A DNA stretch of 39,880 nucleotides from an uncultured bacterium (lineage in GTDB: Bacteria; Bacillota; Clostridia; Oscillospirales; Acutalibacteraceae), in the NCBI GenBank assembly GCA_949293385.1, contig CASFDQ010000014.1:1-39880 (forward strand), written 5' to 3'. Positions 20,084-38,221 of the stretch are shown in pieces. The position numbers and the translations under genes are program-made. Each line of letters begins with the position of its first letter. Within the stretch, counting starts at the first letter, position 1. The notes under the pieces were generated by a model. That model was not told the origin of the DNA, made no database searches, and saw only the letters and a list, made by a program, of their open reading frames with translations.

Positions 20084-22042
20084 TTGGCAAAACTCGATAT
20101 GCAAAAGGTGAGTATTTTCGCCCTTAAAGGCGATAAAAAGAAGATACTTACCGCTTTGCAGAGCCTTGCGGCCTTCGATCTTTCGGGAGCTGAAGCCGCG
20201 CCGCGGGAAGGCTTTTACCGCGAAAGCGAAGAAGCCGACGGTATTCTGAAGCTAAGCGATGCGGCCGACGGAGCGCTAAAAATGCTTAACCGTATTGCTC
20301 CCGCGAAAAAATCCCTGCTTTCGGCTTTTTCGGGCCGAAGAAAGATATCCTCGGAGGAATTCTTCGCTATAGAAGAACGGTCCGACGAGCTTATAGGGAT
20401 ATGTAACGAGATACTTAGTATTGAACGAACGATCGCCGAGCATAAGGCGGAAATAGTACGGCTTGAGATCTCCTCGGAGCAGCTTTCGGCCTACGAGGCG
20501 CTCGACCTTCCGTTATCCTTTACGGGAACCGAAAAAACGGTGGCCGCTATCGGTACGGTATCGGGACTTCTGAGCCTCGACGACCTGCTTAAAAAGCTTG
20601 CCGAGGCCGCACCCGAAACCGAGATATATGCCGAGACCGTAGGCACTGCCTCGGGTCAGACGGCAATATTCGCAACCGCTCCGAGGCGGGAAGAGGAAGC
20701 CTTTAACTCGGCTCTTCGCGAGATAGGATTTTCAAGACCCTCGAATACGAGCGAGCTTTCTCCCCGAGAGGAGCTTGCCCGAATAAAGGACAGGAAAGAA
20801 GCCTTAGAGAAGGATATCTCACAGGGGAAGGAAAGGATCGCGTCCTTTGCCGAATACCGAAACGATATCGAGATACTTAGCGATTGGTACCTTTCAAAGT
20901 CTCTAAGGATCGAGGCGCAAAACTCCCTCGATAACTCGAAGCATACCGTGGTAATAACCGGTTATATCCCGACCTGCGATCTCGAGCTTTTAAAAACTGC
21001 TCTGACCGAAAAATTCACGGTCCATATCGAAAATGAGGCGGCCGACCCCGAAGAAGCTCCCGTAAAGCTTAAGGGAAACGCCTTTACCGAACCGGCAGAG
21101 AGTATTACCGCAATGTATGCGCTGCCCTCTGCGGCCGATATCGACCCGACCCCCGTAACCTCATTCTTCTATTATTTCTTCTTTGGAATAATGCTTAGCG
21201 ATGCGGGCTACGGACTACTGATGTGGATAGCGACCTGGGCGGTCAACAAGTTCCTCGACCCCGAGCCGAATATGCGAAAGAATATGAAGCTCTTTATGTA
21301 CTGCGGAATTTCTACGACTCTTTGGGGACTTTTCTTCGGAAGCTTCTTCGGAGTCGATATAATAACCGCGATCTTCGGTCAGCTTCCCTTTAAATACCCG
21401 TTTATAAATCCGATGAACGGTGACGCGGTAATAATGCTTGTGCTGAGCCTTGCCCTCGGCCTTGTGCAGATACTTGCGGGTCTTGCCGTAAAATTTTGGA
21501 TAACCCTTAAGAGCGACGGCTTCTTAGATGCCTTCCTCGATACGGGACTCTGGATAACGACCCTTTTGGGCTTTACCCTGCTTGCGGTGGGAATGATGCT
21601 TCTCCCCGTGCTTCAGACGGTCGGCCTTACAGTAGCCTTCGGCTCAATGGCGGGAATAGCCCTATTCGGGGGACGAAAGAAAAAGGGCGCGATGAAGTTT
21701 ATCGGAGGTCTGGCCTCCCTTTACGACATTACGGGATACGTCAGCGATCTGCTTTCCTTCTCGCGACTTATGGCCCTAGGGCTTACCACCGCCGCCATCA
21801 GTATGGTCTTCAATATGCTGGGCGTAATGGTTAGCGGAGGTATAATCGGAAAGGTCTTTATGGTGGCCGTACTGCTGGTCGGTCACGCCGTAAACTTCGG
21901 ACTTAATGCGCTTGGCGCTTATGTTCATACACTGAGACTTCAGTACGTAGAGCTTTTCTCGAAGTTCTACGACGGCGGCGGGCGAGCCTTCATCCCCTTC
22001 GCCTTCAAAGGTAAATATATCAGAATCAAGGAGGACAAATAA
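20084..22042 (+). CDS. ntpI: V-type ATPase membrane subunit I
   Basis: 652 residues, the a-subunit homologue that forms the ion half-channels. Residues 1-340 are a soluble helical arm binding the peripheral stalks. Residues ~350-640 hold about eight membrane helices, beginning near PTPVTSFFYYFFFGIMLSDA, a conserved block. The LSFSRLMALGLTTAAIS segment carries the essential arginine facing the c-ring. Translation starts at TTG (20084) after AGGCGG. It lies between the stalk and ring genes, in standard order. Confidence 0.95.
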   Translation: MAKLDMQKVSIFALKGDKKKILTALQSLAAFDLSGAEAAPREGFYRESEEADGILKLSDAADGALKMLNRIAPAKKSLLSAFSGRRKISSEEFFAIEERSDELIGICNEILSIERTIAEHKAEIVRLEISSEQLSAYEALDLPLSFTGTEKTVAAIGTVSGLLSLDDLLKKLAEAAPETEIYAETVGTASGQTAIFATAPRREEEAFNSALREIGFSRPSNTSELSPREELARIKDRKEALEKDISQGKERIASFAEYRNDIEILSDWYLSKSLRIEAQNSLDNSKHTVVITGYIPTCDLELLKTALTEKFTVHIENEAADPEEAPVKLKGNAFTEPAESITAMYALPSAADIDPTPVTSFFYYFFFGIMLSDAGYGLLMWIATWAVNKFLDPEPNMRKNMKLFMYCGISTTLWGLFFGSFFGVDIITAIFGQLPFKYPFINPMNGDAVIMLVLSLALGLVQILAGLAVKFWITLKSDGFLDAFLDTGLWITTLLGFTLLAVGMMLLPVLQTVGLTVAFGSMAGIALFGGRKKKGAMKFIGGLASLYDITGYVSDLLSFSRLMALGLTTAAISMVFNMLGVMVSGGIIGKVFMVAVLLVGHAVNFGLNALGAYVHTLRLQYVELFSKFYDGGGRAFIPFAFKGKYIRIKEDK

Positions 22043-22044
22043 TT

Positions 22045-22515
22045 ATGTCAGGAATCGTTTTAGCACTTATCGGTGCCGCACTCGCAACAATTTTATCAGG
22101 TATCGGCTCTGCAAAGGGAGTCGGAATGACCACCGAAGCAGGTATGGGAGTTTTGGCAGAAGACTCTTCAAAGTTCGGTAAGCTCCTCGTTTTAGAGCTT
22201 CTCCCCGGTACTCAGGGTCTTTACGGCTTCATCGTTGCCGTTATCATTATGCTTAACATCGGCGCTCTCGGCGGAACTATCGATATGGATATGAGCTTCA
22301 CTAAGGGTCTGCTCTATCTTATCGCCTCTATCCCGATCGCGTTGGGCGGCCTTTTCTCGGCTATCGCGCAGGGACGCGCCGCTACCGCAGGTGTCGGACT
22401 TATCGCCAAAAAGGGAGAAGACTTCTCTAAGGCAATGGTTTCCACTACCCTCGTTGAGATCTACGCTCTTCTTGCCTTCCTCATATCTCTGCTTTCCGTA
22501 ATCGCTATAGGATAA
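22045..22515 (+). CDS. ntpK: V-type ATPase c-ring subunit K, Na+-type
   Basis: 156 residues, a four-helix duplicated proteolipid. The ion-binding carboxylate is Glu138 in the LVEIYA motif. The Enterococcus NtpK Na+ ligands are all present: LLPGTQGLYG supplies Leu53, Thr56 and Gln57, AQG supplies Gln109, and Tyr60 follows. This supports Na+ rather than H+ translocation. As in NtpK, only the second hairpin has the carboxylate, halving the ion number per ring turn and suiting an ATP-driven pump. The gene starts two bases after subunit I. Confidence 0.95.
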   Translation: MSGIVLALIGAALATILSGIGSAKGVGMTTEAGMGVLAEDSSKFGKLLVLELLPGTQGLYGFIVAVIIMLNIGALGGTIDMDMSFTKGLLYLIASIPIALGGLFSAIAQGRAATAGVGLIAKKGEDFSKAMVSTTLVEIYALLAFLISLLSVIAIG

Positions 22516-22525
22516 GGAGAATAAT

Positions 22526-23107
22526 ATGAGCGCAGAAGAAAAAATTCTGGGTGGCATATTAAGCGAAGCCGAAGCGACTGCCAAGGCTGCCGAGGAAAAA
22601 ACGGCCGAAGAGGTCAAAAAAATGGAGGAAGCTGCCGCCGCTGAGGCGAAGGCCTACTCTGCCGAGGTTATCTCGGCCGCCCTCTTAAAGGCAAAGGCTA
22701 TAAAGAAAAACGCCGACTCGGCCGCAGAGCTTACCGTCCGCGATATGAAGCTCTCCAAAAAGCACGAGGAGATCGAAAAGACCGTCGCTATGGCTCTTGA
22801 GGCTACTCTGAAGCTTGACGACGAAAAATATTTCGCCCTTTTAAGCAAGGTAGCCGCACCCTATGCCAAGGACGGCGAGGCCGTTCTAAAGGTCGGTAAA
22901 AAGGATAAAAAGCGCGACCCTTCGGTCTTTCTTAAAGCCCTTGCGGAGAGGGGTATAAAGGCGATCCTTTCGGATACCTCTGCCTTAGAGGACTACGGCT
23001 TCGTGCTTTCCTACGGCGACGTGGAATATAACCTAACGCTTGCCGCCCTTATAAACGATAAACGCGATATTATAGAAGACCGTATTCATCGAATACTCTT
23101 TGAATGA
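22526..23107 (+). CDS. ntpE: V-type ATPase subunit E (peripheral stalk)
   Basis: 193 residues. An N-terminal ~100-residue Ala/Glu/Lys coiled coil is followed by a compact alpha/beta C-terminal domain ending in EDRIHRILFE, typical of subunit E. It pairs with the product of 19738-20049 to link V1 to subunit I. A short Shine-Dalgarno AAGGAG lies within the preceding stop region, indicating tight coupling to ntpK. Confidence 0.88.
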   Translation: MSAEEKILGGILSEAEATAKAAEEKTAEEVKKMEEAAAAEAKAYSAEVISAALLKAKAIKKNADSAAELTVRDMKLSKKHEEIEKTVAMALEATLKLDDEKYFALLSKVAAPYAKDGEAVLKVGKKDKKRDPSVFLKALAERGIKAILSDTSALEDYGFVLSYGDVEYNLTLAALINDKRDIIEDRIHRILFE

Positions 23108-23132
23108 TAAGCTATATAAAGGAGGCCCTTTA

Positions 23133-24107
23133 GTGGCAACAAGTTCATACGCCTTTGCGGTAGGAAACGTAAGGGCCAGAGAAACCGCGCTTCTTAAAAA
23201 ACAGGATATTTTTCAGCTTCTGTCCTTTAAGACCCCTGCCGAAGCGGTAGGCTTTTTAAGGGAGAAGGGCTTTGCCTGCCCCGATACTCCCGACGGCGAC
23301 CTTTTTAAGGTCGAGGAGCAGAAGCTCTGGGAGTATATTAAGGAGGTCGCTCCCGATTTTTCGGTATTTTCGGCCTTCATTCTTCAAAACGACTGTCACA
23401 ACATAAAATCGGTCCTTAAGTGTATGTCACTCAGCAGGGAGTATAAGGAGCTTATCCTTTCTCCCTATACCGTCGAGCCCGATCAGGTCTATCGCGCCGT
23501 AGCCGAAAAAAGGTTTTCGGAGCTGGGCGAGGATATCGCCGACGGCGTAAAGGAAGCGGCAGACGCCCTTCTTAAGGTAGGCGATCCGCAGCTTGCCGAC
23601 GCTATCATCGACGGTCTCTTTATGGAGCTTCGGCTGAAAAGCGCCGAAAAGCTTAAGCTTTCAATGCTTGAAAAGATTATAAAGACCTCGGTGTTCTACG
23701 ATAATATTAAGGCGGCTATCCGCTGTGCCCGAGCCAAAAAGCCTATGGCCTTTTGTGAGGTCTGCCTTATCGATACACCCGAGCTTTCCAAAAAAGACCT
23801 TATTCCCGCCGTGCTTAAGGGCCCCGACGAGGTTTTGGCCCTTTTGGAAAAGGCCTCGGCCCTCGGTTCTGCCGAAGCGGCCGCCGCTTATAAAAGGTCT
23901 CCCTCCGAATTTGAAAAAACGGTTGACGACCTTATTATGTCGGTTGCGGTAAAGGCGAAATACGTTGCCGTCGGAGCCGAACCCCTTATCGCCTATCTTC
24001 AGGCGAGACTTTGCGAAATAAAGGTCGCACGAATCGTCGTAAACGGTATTACTATCGGTGAAGGCGAAGAAAAGGTGCGGGAAATGTTGAGGGAGCTTTA
24101 TGGTTAA
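23133..24107 (+). CDS. ntpC: V-type ATPase subunit C (central-stalk adaptor)
   Basis: 324 residues of the V-ATPase C/AC39 (NtpC, d-subunit) family, all-helical. It forms the funnel that couples the rotor stalk to the c-ring. I place the start at GTG 23133 (VATSSYAFAVGNVRARE), since AAAGGAGG lies seven bases upstream. An ATG at 23100 would overlap ntpE and add eleven unlikely residues. The NVRARE and LKKQDI positions match the first helices of the family. The 3' end overlaps the subunit F start. Confidence 0.88.
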   Translation: MATSSYAFAVGNVRARETALLKKQDIFQLLSFKTPAEAVGFLREKGFACPDTPDGDLFKVEEQKLWEYIKEVAPDFSVFSAFILQNDCHNIKSVLKCMSLSREYKELILSPYTVEPDQVYRAVAEKRFSELGEDIADGVKEAADALLKVGDPQLADAIIDGLFMELRLKSAEKLKLSMLEKIIKTSVFYDNIKAAIRCARAKKPMAFCEVCLIDTPELSKKDLIPAVLKGPDEVLALLEKASALGSAEAAAAYKRSPSEFEKTVDDLIMSVAVKAKYVAVGAEPLIAYLQARLCEIKVARIVVNGITIGEGEEKVREMLRELYG

Positions 24108-24417
24108 GATAGCATTTTTGGGCGACCGCGAAAGCGTTAAGGGCTTCGCCTGCGTGGGGGTAAACGTTTTCCCCTGCGAAACGGCTGAAGAGGCCGAGAA
24201 AGCGCTTAAAAAATTAACCGACGGCGAGTACGGCATAATTTATATAACCGAAGAATACGCCCTCGCCCTATCCGAGCAAATAGAAAAGTTCGACGAGCGT
24301 CTGAGCCCCGCAATAATTCCTCTTCCCGGAGTTAAAAACAACAACGGAATAGGAATTACCCGTCTTAAGGCCTCGGTAGAAAAAGCCGTCGGTTCGGATA
24401 TTATATTTAATAAATAA
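24100..24417 (+). CDS. ntpG: V-type ATPase subunit F
   Basis: 105 residues, the small Rossmann-like rotor-stalk subunit. VKIAFLGDRESVKGFACVGV at the N-terminus, YGIIYITEEYA in the middle and IIPLPGVKNNNGIG toward the end are the recognisable family blocks. The start codon overlaps the end of ntpC by eight bases. It binds subunit D in the central axle. Confidence 0.9.
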   Translation: MVKIAFLGDRESVKGFACVGVNVFPCETAEEAEKALKKLTDGEYGIIYITEEYALALSEQIEKFDERLSPAIIPLPGVKNNNGIGITRLKASVEKAVGSDIIFNK

Positions 24418-24442
24418 TTTACTCTAAGGAGCTAAAAATATT

Positions 24443-26209
24443 ATGGCAAACGGAGTTATAACCAAGGTCGCAGGCCCTCTTATAATCGCCGAGGGAATGC
24501 GCGACGCAAATATGTTCGACGTTGTAAGGGTCAGCGATAAGCGCCTTATCGGCGAAATAATCGAAATGCACGGCGATAAAGCCTCGATTCAGGTTTACGA
24601 GGAAACCTCGGGTATCGGCCCCGGTGAGGAGGTCGTATCTACCGGAATTCCGCTGTCGGTTGAGCTTGGACCCGGACTTATCGGCTCTATTTTCGACGGT
24701 ATTCAGCGTCCTCTTGCTAAAATTATGGAGGTCAGCGGTACTAACCTCGAAAGGGGAGTAGAAGTACCCTCTCTTGACCGCGAAAAGAAATGGCCCTTCG
24801 TTCCCGTAAAGGAGATCGGTGACGAGGTCGTCCCCGGCGATACCTTGGGTACCGTTCAGGAGACCGCCGTTGTTTCGCATAAAATAATGGTCCCCGATAA
24901 GATTTCGGGTAAGATCGTCGATATTAAAAAGGATTTCTACTCGGTCAAGGATATCGTGGCCAAGATCGAAACGGCTAAGGGTATCGTCGAGCTCAAAATG
25001 ATGCAGACGTGGCCCGTTCGTGTAGGCCGACCCTATAAGACCAAGCTTTCTCCCGATATTCCCCTCGTCACGGGTCAGCGCGTTATCGATACCCTCTTCC
25101 CCCTTGCAAAGGGAGGCGTGGCATCGGTTCCCGGCCCCTTCGGTTCGGGTAAGACGGTCGTTCAGCATCAGCTTGCAAAGTGGGCCGCCGCCGATATTAT
25201 CGTATATATCGGATGCGGTGAGCGCGGTAACGAAATGACCGACGTTTTGAACGAATTCCCCGAGCTTAAAGACCCCAGAACGGGCAGCTCTCTTATGGAG
25301 CGTACCGTTCTTATCGCCAATACCTCGGATATGCCGGTTGCCGCCCGTGAGGCCTCTATTTATACGGGTATTACGATCGCCGAATACTTCCGCGATATGG
25401 GCTATACCGTAGCCCTTATGGCCGACTCTACCTCCCGTTGGGCCGAGGCTCTTCGTGAAATGTCGGGCCGTCTTGAGGAAATGCCGGGCGAGGAAGGCTA
25501 TCCCGCCTACCTCGGCTCCCGTCTGGCGCAGTTCTACGAGCGCGCAGGCCGCGTAATAGTTCGCGGAAGCGAGGATATAGAAGGTGCCCTTTCGGTTATC
25601 GGAGCCGTTTCTCCTCCCGGAGGAGATATCTCCGAGCCCGTTTCTCAGGCGACCCTTCGTATAGTCAAGGTCTTCTGGGGGCTGGACGCCTCCCTTGCCT
25701 ATAAGCGTCACTTCCCTGCGATAAACTGGCTTACGAGCTATTCCCTTTATTCCGATTCCTTAGAGGATTGGTTTAAGAAAAACGTTAATTCCGAGTGGAA
25801 CGACCTTCGCGCAAGACTTATGGCCATACTTCAGGAGGAGGCCGAGCTTGAAGAGATCGTAAAGCTGGTCGGTATGGACGCTCTGTCTGCTCCCGACCGC
25901 CTTACCTTAGAGGCCGCCCGCTCGGTAAGAGAAGACTATCTGCATCAGAACGCCTTCCACGAGACCGATACCTATACCTCCCTTGATAAGCAGTATTATA
26001 TGATGTCGGCCCTTATGGAATACTACGTAAGATCGCAGACGGCGGTTAAAAACGGCGCCGATATCGAAAAGATAGTTGCCCTGCCGTCTAGGGAGCGTAT
26101 CGGACGTCTTAAGTACGTCACCGAAGATAAGGTGAAAGTCGAGTATGACGCAATTCTTGCTCAGCTTGCCGAAGAACTCGACCGCGCGGCTGAAAATACC
26201 GAGAACTAA
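24443..26209 (+). CDS. ntpA: V-type ATPase catalytic subunit A
   Basis: 588 residues. Walker A GPFGSGKT occupies 231-238 and a catalytic Glu lies in GCGERGNEM. The [17 protein letters not shown] block is the invariant nucleotide-site segment. The ~90-residue insertion before the P-loop that separates V-type A from F-type beta is present (residues ~110-205). Length matches Enterococcus NtpA (593). It hydrolyses ATP in the A3B3 head. Intein insertion, common in this gene elsewhere, is absent. Confidence 0.97.
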
Positions 26210-26220
26210 GGAGGAAAGAT

Positions 26221-27585
26221 ATGGCTAAGGAATACAGAACCATCCGCGAGGTCGCAGGACCTCTTATGATGGTAAGCGACGTAGAAAACGTCAAATACGA
26301 TGAGCTTGGCGAGATCGAGCTTCCCTCGGGTGAGACGAGACGCTGTAAGGTTCTTGAGGTAAATGGCTCAAACGCCCTTTTGCAGCTTTTTGAAAGCAGT
26401 GCGGGTATAAATCTTCAGGACTCAAAGGTCCGTTTCCTCGGTCGCTCTATGGAGCTTGCCGTTTCGCCCGATATGCTTTCCCGCGTTTTCGACGGACTCG
26501 GCCGTCCTATTGACGGAGGTCCCTCGATAATCCCCGAAAAGCGTCTCGACGTTAACGGAAAGCCTATGAATCCCGCCGCACGTAACTATCCTCAGGAGTT
26601 TATTCAGACGGGAATTTCGGCTATCGACGGACTTAATACCCTCGTCCGCGGTCAGAAGCTTCCCATCTTCTCGGCTTCGGGTCTTCCTCATTCGAATCTT
26701 GCGGCGCAGATCGCCCGTCAGGCAACCGTTCGCGGCGACGGGGAGCAGTTCGCCGTCGTTTTCGCCGCTATGGGTATAACCTTCGAGGAGTCTAACTATT
26801 TTATCAATTCCTTTAAGGAGACCGGCGCTATCGATAGAACGGTTATGTTTATAAACCTTGCTAACGACCCCGCTATCGAGCGTATCGCGACCCCGAAAAT
26901 GGCTCTTACCTGCGCCGAATATCTTGCCTTCGAGCTTGGTATGCAGGTGCTTGTAATTATGACCGATATAACCAACTATGCCGACGCCCTTCGTGAGGTT
27001 TCGGCCGCCCGTAAGGAGGTCCCCGGCCGCCGCGGATACCCCGGCTATATGTATACCGACCTTGCTACCCTCTACGAGCGCGCAGGACGTCTTAAGGGTA
27101 AGGACGGCTCCATAACCCTTATTCCTATTCTGACTATGCCCGAGGACGATAAGACTCATCCTATTCCCGACCTTACGGGATATATTACCGAGGGTCAGAT
27201 AATCCTTTCCCGTGAGCTTTACCGTAAGGGTATAACTCCCCCCATCGACGTTCTGCCCTCCCTTTCCCGACTTAAGGATAAGGGTATCGGCGAGGGACGT
27301 ACCCGTAAGGATCACGCCGCCACTATGAATCAGCTTTTTGCCGCCTATGCCCGAGGCAAGGACGCAAAGGAGCTTATGGTAATTCTCGGTGAGGCCGCCC
27401 TCACCGCAACCGACAAGCTTTACGCGGAGTTTGCCGACCGTTTTGAAAAGGAATACGTTTCTCAGGGCTATTCCGCCAACCGTACCATCGAAGAGACTCT
27501 TGATCTCGGCTGGAAGCTTCTCCGTATTCTGCCCCGAAGCGAGCTTAAGCGTATAAGCGACGAGATGCTCGATAAGTACTACTGA
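26221..27585 (+). CDS. ntpB: V-type ATPase subunit B (non-catalytic)
   Basis: 454 residues, the regulatory partner of subunit A. The canonical P-loop is replaced by [16 protein letters not shown], as expected for V-type B. Family blocks [20 protein letters not shown] and [20 protein letters not shown] are intact, including the arginine finger region after ERAGR. It follows ntpA by eleven bases with AAGGAGG. Confidence 0.97.
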
Positions 27586-27613
27586 TTAACCGACCCGAAA
27601 GGACTGAAGAAAA

Positions 27614-28285
27614 TTGGCCGTTCTTAACGTGAACCCCACGCGAATGGAACTGACGCGCCTGAAAAAGCAGCTCACTACCGCCGTAAGAGGTCATAAACTG
27701 CTTAAAGACAAGCGCGATGAGCTTATGCGCCGATATCTCGACCTTATCCGCGAAAACCGAACCCTTCGCGAGGAGGTCGAAGCCGAGATAAAAGAGGCAA
27801 ACGGTCATTTTGTAAAGGCTACGGGCGTTATGTCGAAGGAAAGCCTCGATACCGCCCTTCTTGTTCCTAAGCAGGAGGCCTACCTCAGCGTCGGCTCTAA
27901 AAACGTAATGAGTGTCGACATCCCTGTTTACAGTATCGACTGGCGAACGGGGGACACCTCCGACGTCTACAGCTACGGCTTCGCCTCAACCTCCTTTGAG
28001 CTGGACGAAGCGGTAGACAGGGTAAACGCCCTTCTGCCCAAAATGTTAAAGCTTGCCGAGGTCGAAAAGGCTACGAGCCTTATGGCGGGGGAGATAGAGA
28101 AGACGAGACGAAGGGTAAACGCCCTTGAGCACGTTATGATCCCGCGCTACCGCGAAACCATTCGTATGATAACAATGAAGCTGGAGGAAAACGACCGCTC
28201 CTCCAGAGCAAGACTTATGAAGGTCAAGGATATGATGATAAAGCAGACTATTGAAAATCGTCAGGCGAATCCCGATACTATTTAG
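27614..28285 (+). CDS. ntpD: V-type ATPase subunit D (central axle)
   Basis: 223 residues: two long helices (residues ~5-75 and ~125-200) that form the rotating axle in the A3B3 head. The start is NVNPTRMELTRLKKQL and the later block is RRVNALEHVMIPRYRETIRM, both diagnostic. It initiates at TTG (27614) after AAAGGA. argH follows after eleven bases, with no terminator between them. Confidence 0.93.
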   Translation: MAVLNVNPTRMELTRLKKQLTTAVRGHKLLKDKRDELMRRYLDLIRENRTLREEVEAEIKEANGHFVKATGVMSKESLDTALLVPKQEAYLSVGSKNVMSVDIPVYSIDWRTGDTSDVYSYGFASTSFELDEAVDRVNALLPKMLKLAEVEKATSLMAGEIEKTRRRVNALEHVMIPRYRETIRMITMKLEENDRSSRARLMKVKDMMIKQTIENRQANPDTI

Positions 28286-34861: not shown

Positions 34862-34890
34862 TTGACCGCAGAGGTAGGTTGTGATATAAT
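34862..34890 (+). promoter_or_regulatory. promoter of the rpmG-secE-nusG cluster, inside a hairpin
   Basis: TTGACC (34862-34867), 17-base spacer, TATAAT (34885-34890). CAGAGGTAG (34869-34877) and CTACCTCTG (34895-34903) flank the -10, and nine T follow at 34911-34919. Further hairpins (GGTTTCG/CGAAACC) occupy the leader to 35037. Confidence 0.8.
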
Positions 34891-35037
34891 TACTCTACCT
34901 CTGTAGGTTCTTTTTTTTTGCAAAGAACTTTTTCAAAGCGAAAACGGTATGTGTGCACGCCGTTTCGTTGAGGGAGGCTAAATAGGTTTCGGACAGGAAC
35001 GAAACCGAAAATATTCCGTAAAACGGGAGGTGCCGTC

Positions 35038-35187
35038 ATGAGAGTAAAAATTACACTCGCCTGCACTGAGTGCAAGCAACGCAACTACAATACTATGAAA
35101 AACAAAAAGAACGATCCCGACAGACTTGAAATGAACAAGTACTGCAGATTCTGCAAGAAGCACACAGTTCACAAGGAAACAAAATAA
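35038..35187 (+). CDS. rpmG: 50S ribosomal protein bL33 (zinc form)
   Basis: 49 residues, [12 protein letters not shown] to HTVHKETK. Cys9, Cys12, Cys36 and Cys39 make it the zinc-ribbon (C+) version, so no zinc-independent substitute is seen here. GGGAGG lies eight bases upstream of the ATG. The order rpmG-secE-nusG is the Firmicute standard. Confidence 0.96.
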
Positions 35188-35198
35188 GGAGGAATAAT

Positions 35199-35876
35199 AT
35201 GAAGGCAGTTAATAAGATCAGTCAGATTTTAACTGTGCTCTTTTCAGCAGCCGCAGTTATTCTCTTCTTCTTGCCCTTCGCCACCGTCGCTTTCGGCGGA
35301 AAGGATTACACCTTCATCGGTGCCCAGTTCGCATTCGGAACCGGTATCGAAGGCTTTAAGGATTCTCTGGCTAAATCAGGTCAGGTCCTGTTTTGTTTCA
35401 TCCTTGCTCTGCTTACTCTTGTTTTCTCCGGACTTACCTTTAAGTTCAAAAAGATGAGATATTGGGCTCCCGGTGTGGGCCTTGCAGGTGCTGTATTTAT
35501 GCTGGTTCGCGCGCTCAGAGGAGCAGGTCACTTTATCGACCACAGACCCTTAGAGCCCGCCAAGATCGGCTACGAGCCCTTCGTATGGCTTACCGTAGGC
35601 GCCCTCTTCGCAGCAGTCGTTTTCGGTATTTGTCATCTCTTCATCGACGATCGCATTATGGTCAGCGAGGGAAAAGCAAAGCGCACTATTATTCAGCGCA
35701 TCGTTCACGCTCTCCGCGACTACAAGAGTGAAATTAAGAAGATCGTTTGGCCCGGTCCTCGCGATGTCGTTAAAAACACTCTCGTCGTTATCGCCGTATG
35801 CGTATTGGTCGGTATCTTTATCTGGCTCGTCGACTTCGGTCTTTCTTGGCTTATCCGTCTGGTTACAGGCGCTTAA
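35199..35876 (+). CDS. secE: SecE with large N-terminal membrane extension
   Basis: 225 residues, versus the ~60-75 usual in Firmicutes. The C-terminal 63 residues (163-225) are a normal SecE: an amphipathic helix (RDYKSEIKKIVWPGPRDVV) and one membrane anchor, the part that clamps SecY in the translocon. The first ~155 residues carry four more predicted helices (about 8-31, 62-81, 88-107, 127-149) and a G/F-rich loop. There is no frameshift and no internal ribosome-binding site before residue 163, so it appears to be one fused protein. I do not recognise the extension. Operon position between rpmG and nusG is canonical. Confidence 0.88.
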   Translation: MKAVNKISQILTVLFSAAAVILFFLPFATVAFGGKDYTFIGAQFAFGTGIEGFKDSLAKSGQVLFCFILALLTLVFSGLTFKFKKMRYWAPGVGLAGAVFMLVRALRGAGHFIDHRPLEPAKIGYEPFVWLTVGALFAAVVFGICHLFIDDRIMVSEGKAKRTIIQRIVHALRDYKSEIKKIVWPGPRDVVKNTLVVIAVCVLVGIFIWLVDFGLSWLIRLVTGA

Positions 35877-35891: not shown

Positions 35892-36419
35892 ATGTCAGAG
35901 AGCAGTCAGGCAAGATGGTATGTCGTTCATACCTATTCGGGTTATGAAAATAAGGTAGCGAGCGATCTTGAGATCATGGTAGAGAACCGCAAAATGCAGG
36001 ATCTCATTATGGACATCAAGATTCCTACCGAGACCGTTACCGAAATCAAAGAAGACAAGGTAAAAGAATACGAACGAAAGATTTTCCCCGGTTACGTACT
36101 CATTAAAATGATTGTTACCGACGATTCCTGGTATGTCGTGCGCAACATTCGCGGAGTTACCGGATTTGTAGGTCCCGGATCCAAGCCGGTGCCTCTTACC
36201 GACGCGGAGGTAGAAGCCCTCGGCGTTGAGAAGCACAGTGTTGAGGTCGGCTATAAGATCGGCGACCTTGTTAACATTGTGGACGGACCCCTTAAGGATT
36301 TTCAGGGTACCGTTACCGCTGTCGATCTCGAAAACGGAAGCGTCAGCGTAAACATTTCGATGTTCGGAAGAGAAACCCCTGCCGAGCTCGAACTCGACCA
36401 GATCGCTCTGGCCGACTAA
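35892..36419 (+). CDS. nusG: transcription antitermination/termination factor NusG
   Basis: 175 residues. The N-terminal NGN domain begins RWYVVHTYSGYENKVASDLE and binds RNA polymerase. The C-terminal KOW domain includes GDLVNIVDGPLKDFQGTVTA. The ATG has GGAGGG upstream, 15 bases after secE ends. It stimulates pausing or processivity and links to ribosomes through S10. Length and domains are ordinary. Confidence 0.97.
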   Translation: MSESSQARWYVVHTYSGYENKVASDLEIMVENRKMQDLIMDIKIPTETVTEIKEDKVKEYERKIFPGYVLIKMIVTDDSWYVVRNIRGVTGFVGPGSKPVPLTDAEVEALGVEKHSVEVGYKIGDLVNIVDGPLKDFQGTVTAVDLENGSVSVNISMFGRETPAELELDQIALAD

Positions 36420-38034: not shown

Positions 38035-38063
38035 TTGACAACGCAGGTTTTCTGTGTTATCAT
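38035..38063 (+). promoter_or_regulatory. promoter of rplJ-rplL
   Basis: TTGACA (38035-38040), 17-base spacer, TATCAT (38058-38063). Confidence 0.85.
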
Positions 38064-38070
38064 CTTTAAG

Positions 38071-38191
38071 CATCCAAAGACAGCAGGTCGCTTTTTCGAT
38101 AAGTTTTATCGCCTGCCGAGGTAATGCGAATAGCTTTTTATAAAAGTATTATTCTGCCTGTCCTCACCGTCTTTGGAGGACAGGTTTTTTT
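38071..38191 (+). promoter_or_regulatory. ribosomal protein L10 leader with attenuator
   Basis: The leader opens with CATCCAAAGACAGCAGGT and contains a GCCTGCCGAGGTAATGCGAA segment, the recognisable L10-leader core. CCAAAGAC (38074-38081) can pair with GTCTTTGG (38169-38176). The latter lies in the loop of a terminator stem CCTGTCCTC/GAGGACAGG (38157-38184) followed by T7. Binding of the L10-L12 complex is expected to favour termination, giving autoregulation. Confidence 0.88.
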
Positions 38192-38221
38192 AATTCACTA
38201 ATTTCGGAGGTGAAAACTTTA

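Follow-up and report, generated by a model that had tools for sequence, protein, structure and literature searches.

The SecE protein encoded in the window, a 39,880-nucleotide stretch from an uncultured bacterium of the family Acutalibacteraceae (contig CASFDQ010000014.1 of assembly GCA_949293385.1), carries four additional predicted membrane helices in front of its essential anchor, and this N-terminal domain recurs, fused to SecE in the same way, in a lineage of gut Clostridia. Its predicted fold resembles that of claudins and TARPs. Few machines of life are as conserved as SecYEG, whose SecE subunit tends to be viewed as a minimal clamp. A lineage-wide five-helix SecE with a claudin-like domain apparently is undescribed; a literature search for such a protein, with subscription papers outside its coverage, found no description.

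The secE frame is open from position 35199 to 35876 of the forward strand, and its ATG start is preceded by AAGGAGG. The C-terminal part was matched by the Pfam profile SecE (PF00584; residues 172-222, E 1.4e-17, 63.8 bits at a cut-off of 22.7) and by TIGR00964 (residues 169-223, E 1.2e-16, 60.4 bits at a cut-off of 27.55). The gene order rpmG-secE-nusG-rplK is canonical, with ribosomal protein genes downstream. The source genome (2.1 Mb, 149 contigs, 96.2% complete) contains one copy of SecE, and SecG was found as well. This frame is the organism's genuine and only SecE. An earlier note, made from the sequence of the window, had described a SecE fused to a four-helix membrane domain, located at the canonical operon position and apparently without a second copy. 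The profile matches, 11 relatives and 49 complete contigs confirm the fusion, the gene holds the same place in relatives, and a second, short secE was looked for in the 96.2%-complete genome and not found. Features of the locus are compiled in Table 1. Three further observations were made in the window: at 34862-34920, the strong promoter-like site upstream of rpmG lies within an inverted repeat (AGAGGTAG...CTACCTCT) followed by a T run, which may be the rlmH terminator and the rpmG promoter joined; a ribosomal protein L10 leader (RF00557, 56.4 bits) is located at 38056-38200 upstream of rplJ; and positions 20084-28285, going by ORF sequences only, hold a V-type ATPase operon.

Table 1 Features of the secE locus and of the five-helix SecE protein (positions in the window; residue numbers of SecE in parentheses).
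Feature	Position	Strand	Basis
Likely promoter of the rpmG-secE-nusG operon	34862..34890	+	TTGACC-17-TATAAT, extended -10; consensus scan 11/12, consensus only
rpmG (ribosomal protein L33)	35038..35187	+	ORF and position; synteny query
secE, five-helix form, 225 aa	35199..35876	+	ORF, Pfam/NCBIfam, synteny
N-terminal four-helix claudin/TARP-like domain, predicted (1-156)	35199..35666	+	AlphaFold2, Foldseek PDB, 52-sequence alignment
TM1 (2-22)	35202..35264	+	AlphaFold2
Two extracytoplasmic strands (26-32, 35-40) at the start of loop 1; conserved G41 next	35274..35318	+	AlphaFold2, alignment
TM2 (61-79); conserved S60 just before, F65, C66	35379..35435	+	AlphaFold2, alignment
Cytoplasmic loop between TM2 and TM3 (80-87), positively charged (net charge averages +3.4 in homologues)	35436..35459	+	charge count
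TM3 (86-107), YMLVI-ALS motif in homologues	35454..35519	+	hydropathy, AlphaFold2
Second extracytoplasmic loop (108-126), invariant D114, strand 122-125	35520..35576	+	AlphaFold2, alignment
TM4 (127-156)	35577..35666	+	AlphaFold2
SecE cytoplasmic amphipathic helix (164-181)	35688..35741	+	Pfam, AlphaFold2
SecE essential anchor helix (187-223)	35757..35867	+	Pfam, AlphaFold2
nusG	35892..36419	+	ORF; synteny

A hydropathy scan found five helices in total in 49/50 proteins; the exception is the window protein itself, in which three of the four extra helices were found and TM3 stayed below the threshold. The AlphaFold2 model, calculated with 52 sequences (mean pLDDT 89.5), runs from TM1 through a two-strand extracellular hairpin, a short helix, TM2, TM3, a strand and TM4 to the amphipathic helix and the anchor; at a pTM of 0.71, the placement of the domain relative to the SecE helix is uncertain. 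Positive-inside charges fit a cytoplasmic N-terminus and a TM2-TM3 loop that is strongly positive, and the topology is predicted to be N-in/C-in with TM4 just before the SecE amphipathic helix. The model and the hydropathy of the homologues thus agree with the approximately 155 residues and four helices that had been read from the sequence. The earlier note had also seen no known domain in this part and had proposed an HMM search of residues 1-160, which gave no Pfam or NCBIfam domain above cut-off; a PDB sequence search likewise gave no match. We rejected sub-threshold Pfam matches to BrkB (in 1/52 homologues) and to CcmD and B12D (outside the 25 commonest families among the homologues) as well as a weak, unsupported NCBIfam match to SLATT (in 2/52 homologues). 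The absence of recognised relatives stands for Pfam and NCBIfam, but not for the predicted claudin/TARP-like fold, nor for distant bacterial relatives in sequence.

Comparison of the model with the PDB using Foldseek returned as top matches LHFPL4/GARLH4, GSG1L, TARP gamma-2 and gamma-8, claudins and E. coli LetA, with probabilities of ~1, a best E-value of 1.7e-3 (none below 1e-3) and TM scores of 0.3-0.56 for chains of comparable size. With the claudin fold (claudins, TARPs, GSG1L, LHFPL/GARLH and PMP22), the N-terminal domain model shares four helices with both termini inside, one inner loop, and outer strands contributed by loop 1 and loop 2. In the strict sense, a claudin fold comprises five strands, with a disulfide in loop 1 (PMC13307082). 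Loop 1 supplies four of its strands and loop 2 the fifth, whereas the model shows two main strands plus one; the conserved disulfide is absent, residues 26-60 of the window domain being free of cysteine. Because of the fewer strands in the model and the missing loop-1 cysteine, the predicted domain is properly called 'claudin-like' and not 'a claudin', from which it also differs in being bacterial and fused to SecE. The bacterial match is the transmembrane domain of LetA (9n8w, E 0.024), which, unlike the SecE domain, is a lipid transporter module outside the translocon.

Among 60 relatives compared, the N-terminal domain was matched in 9/9 genomes of the same genus, in one of which a contig end cuts it short; three genomes of other genera have full-length homologues at 43-50% identity, while nearly all others matched in the SecE part only. 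When the N-terminal alignment was run against a set of 84,980 species genomes, it yielded 52 loci from Clostridia MAGs that came mostly from the guts of ruminants and horses. Each of the 49 complete contigs has the domain fused to SecE, with rpmG and nusG as neighbours wherever the contig reaches. As a matter of sequence, the fusion is far beyond chance because it is kept at 43-64% full-length identity in 11 relatives and occurs in these 49 contigs. At family level, 68/398 genomes and 29/135 genera were matched (E 0.001), a count that includes a handful of weak matches to other proteins; strong matches that were read out proved to be SecE-fused unless cut by a contig end. Strong matches in the order (394 genomes) were confined to the window's own family, and in the phylum (398 genomes) the scan turned up, apart from the window itself, no more than two weak matches. 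A few weak order-level matches (L143, L144) are short and partial and were treated as chance. In a NusG tree, carriers of the five-helix SecE form nearly one clade with one-anchor sisters beside it, and the form apparently has a single origin. One locus with a one-anchor SecE (L027) falls within the clade on a long branch, by either loss or tree error.

Could the additional helices belong to a separate or spurious upstream frame, with a short SecE made from an internal start? Some in-frame ATG is found near the SecE boundary in 17/50 homologues, which would fit such a reading, yet a start with an SD sequence occurs there in only one of the 50, whereas all 50 have an SD sequence at the long start. 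No conserved internal start was found, and conservation of the upstream frame is at the level of the protein. A start near residue ~155, which the earlier note had named as evidence that would speak against the fusion, is hence unsupported by sequence; internal initiation was rejected, as were frameshift, misassembly and chimera by the same fusion in 49 contigs, and we consider an artefact of this kind extremely improbable. The N-terminal domain also behaves like a selected protein: in close pairs its dN/dS is mostly 0.04-0.36, similar to that of the SecE part, and K2, F23, S60, L102, V103 and D114 are invariant in 52 aligned sequences. By these measures the domain is under purifying selection. 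The domain has no known function and seemingly arose once in one clade, which would suit a passenger that became fixed by chance and hitchhikes on an essential gene; yet its reading frame is preserved across 49 contigs and dozens of genomes. Taken together, the SD sequences at the long start, the low dN/dS and the invariant residues argue against passenger and artefact alike, and a neutral passenger appears very unlikely to us.

Where did the domain come from? A profile of the 52 sequences also matched, more weakly, the four-helix N-terminus of a PstC-like ABC permease (L114, L115, L116) at E ~1e-6, although hydrophobic segments can inflate the scores of such distant relatives. Further weak matches were obtained with the C-terminus of a protein with an 842-aa frame and with four-helix domains beside zinc ribbons or FHA; one locus (L140 of G853) combines a four-helix-like segment with a zinc ribbon and an FHA domain at distant profile similarity. 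The permease and zinc-ribbon matches span most of the domain and have the FF-P end of TM1 and the loop-1 SG motif in common with it. DUF4293 was weakly matched in 24/52 domains (best E 8.5e-5, below the Pfam gathering score) and had no match in the window domain itself; DUF4293/zinc-ribbon four-helix proteins of Bacillota show weak profile similarity, yet are unfused to SecE. A paralogue of the domain was not found elsewhere in its own genome. In one-anchor relatives the rpmG-secE gap is mostly 0-50 bp, with no separate four-helix ORF in it and no room for one, and such a gene was rejected. Its sequence relatives make the domain look mobile, a module added to a SecE with a single anchor. The simplest history would have a one-anchor secE capture this movable domain: in an ancestor of the lineage, a claudin/TARP-like module would have been joined in frame to the N-terminus of an ordinary SecE.

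One-anchor SecE proteins, as in Bacillus, Streptomyces and the nearest relatives, have the same SecE domain and operon place without the N-terminal domain. Extra helices of the E. coli type are normally absent from Gram-positive SecE (PMC3087755, PMC12445088). The three-helix SecE of E. coli likewise carries N-terminal helices before the same amphipathic helix and anchor, and the four-helix domain is likewise attached directly ahead of the amphipathic helix; in both proteins the linker is cytosolic because the number of extra helices is even. E. coli SecE has exactly two accessory helices and no beta-bearing outer loop, whereas the window SecE has four helices and such a loop, in line with the earlier remark that its layout differs from the three-helix form. 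Other SecE forms were seen in the same order. Another family of the order, f15 (L137/L039 of G050; L138/L145 of G437), has a second kind of five-helix SecE, present in two genomes and 44% identical between them; homology of its N-terminal domain to that of the window is unsupported (hhalign probability 0.2%). Within the window's family, L031 (G032) and L038 (G036) encode a three-helix SecE with two added N-terminal helices. In L040:1047-1598 (G055), likewise of the order, the SecE domain is preceded by a start resembling a signal peptide, an acidic linker and one extra helix. Apparently, the order thus holds at least three other N-terminal SecE extensions, which we regard as independent because of their lack of similarity and their tree position.

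Why should an essential part of the export channel carry such a domain? SecE acts as a clamp on the back of SecY, and FtsH degrades SecY that lacks SecE (PMC8082313). Since SecE clamps SecY, the extra bundle would, as we infer, be held beside SecY in every translocon. It would probably be a built-in accessory subunit, its small beta face turned outward, that packs on SecY close to either the lateral gate or the back hinge and might tune gate dynamics or stability, a role much like the one proposed for the two additional helices in E. coli SecE. The latter form a tilted hairpin reaching SecY TMH8 and the TMH7-8 helix near the lateral gate (PMC6776908). Our best guess is thus a SecY-docked module that would tune the gate or stabilise the complex and, second to that, could be a docking platform for a partner. 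The earlier suggestion of an extra module on SecYEG is supported as regards fusion and conservation, whereas contact with SecY is our deduction. That a mobile claudin/TARP-like domain was grafted onto SecE and acts as a SecY-docked accessory subunit seems to us an evenly balanced proposition, since the distant relatives on unrelated proteins may point to a generic role (anchor, lipid or protein binding) that is not specific to translocation, the Foldseek E-values miss 1e-3, the pTM is limited and a one-anchor SecE (L027) sits inside the clade. The sharper version, in which a TARP-like auxiliary subunit was made permanent by fusion to SecE and would directly modulate the lateral gate or hinge of SecY, in parallel to the TARP/LHFPL auxiliary subunits of animal channels, we regard as rather unlikely.

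Equally doubtful is a domain that, without acting on SecY, recruits an extracytoplasmic or membrane partner to the translocon, such as a chaperone, SecDF, YidC, a protease or a wall enzyme. It would suit the invariant or near-invariant residues on the outer side and in the loops (G41, S60, S107, F112, V113, D114 and Y125 in the 52-sequence alignment), and such members of the claudin fold as TARPs and LHFPL4 are auxiliary or scaffold proteins. SecDF is kept in 22/22 five-helix genomes as opposed to 9/18 others of the family, a pattern confounded by ancestry as many SecDF-less genomes are grouped in the NusG tree; moreover, no partner gene is linked in the operon. With SecG in the source genome, SecDF in all 22 and YajC in 20/22 five-helix genomes, compensation for a loss of these components was rejected. 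SecDF was not found in the high-completeness genomes G011, G012, G014, G015, G017, G018, G027, G030 and G031 of the same family, and in several of these genomes SecE has one anchor and ends in a long C-terminal tail rich in Thr and Glu. The helices might instead do little beyond turning a tail-anchored SecE into a polytopic protein inserted via SRP/Sec, given that one-anchor SecE is tail-anchored-like and E. coli SecE polytopic and Sec-dependent (PMC3087755). If almost any helices sufficed, repeated additions of unrelated N-terminal membrane segments, as in at least three other lineages of the order, would be expected. The conservation, which includes loop residues, and the SecE-like dN/dS, however, exceed the needs of an insertion signal, and we consider this reading improbable, clearly more so than partner recruitment.

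A selected four-helix domain on SecE throughout a lineage amounts to a natural experiment on accessory helices beside SecY. Together with the five-helix form of f15, the three-helix forms of G032 and G036 and the signal-peptide-like extension of G055, it suggests a recurrent pressure on this subunit. With the predicted fold, bacteria too would have a claudin-like domain, one that moves as a module between several unrelated membrane proteins. In this lineage of gut bacteria, an essential part of the export channel thus appears to carry a conserved module that is predicted to be shaped like the accessory subunits of some animal ion channels.
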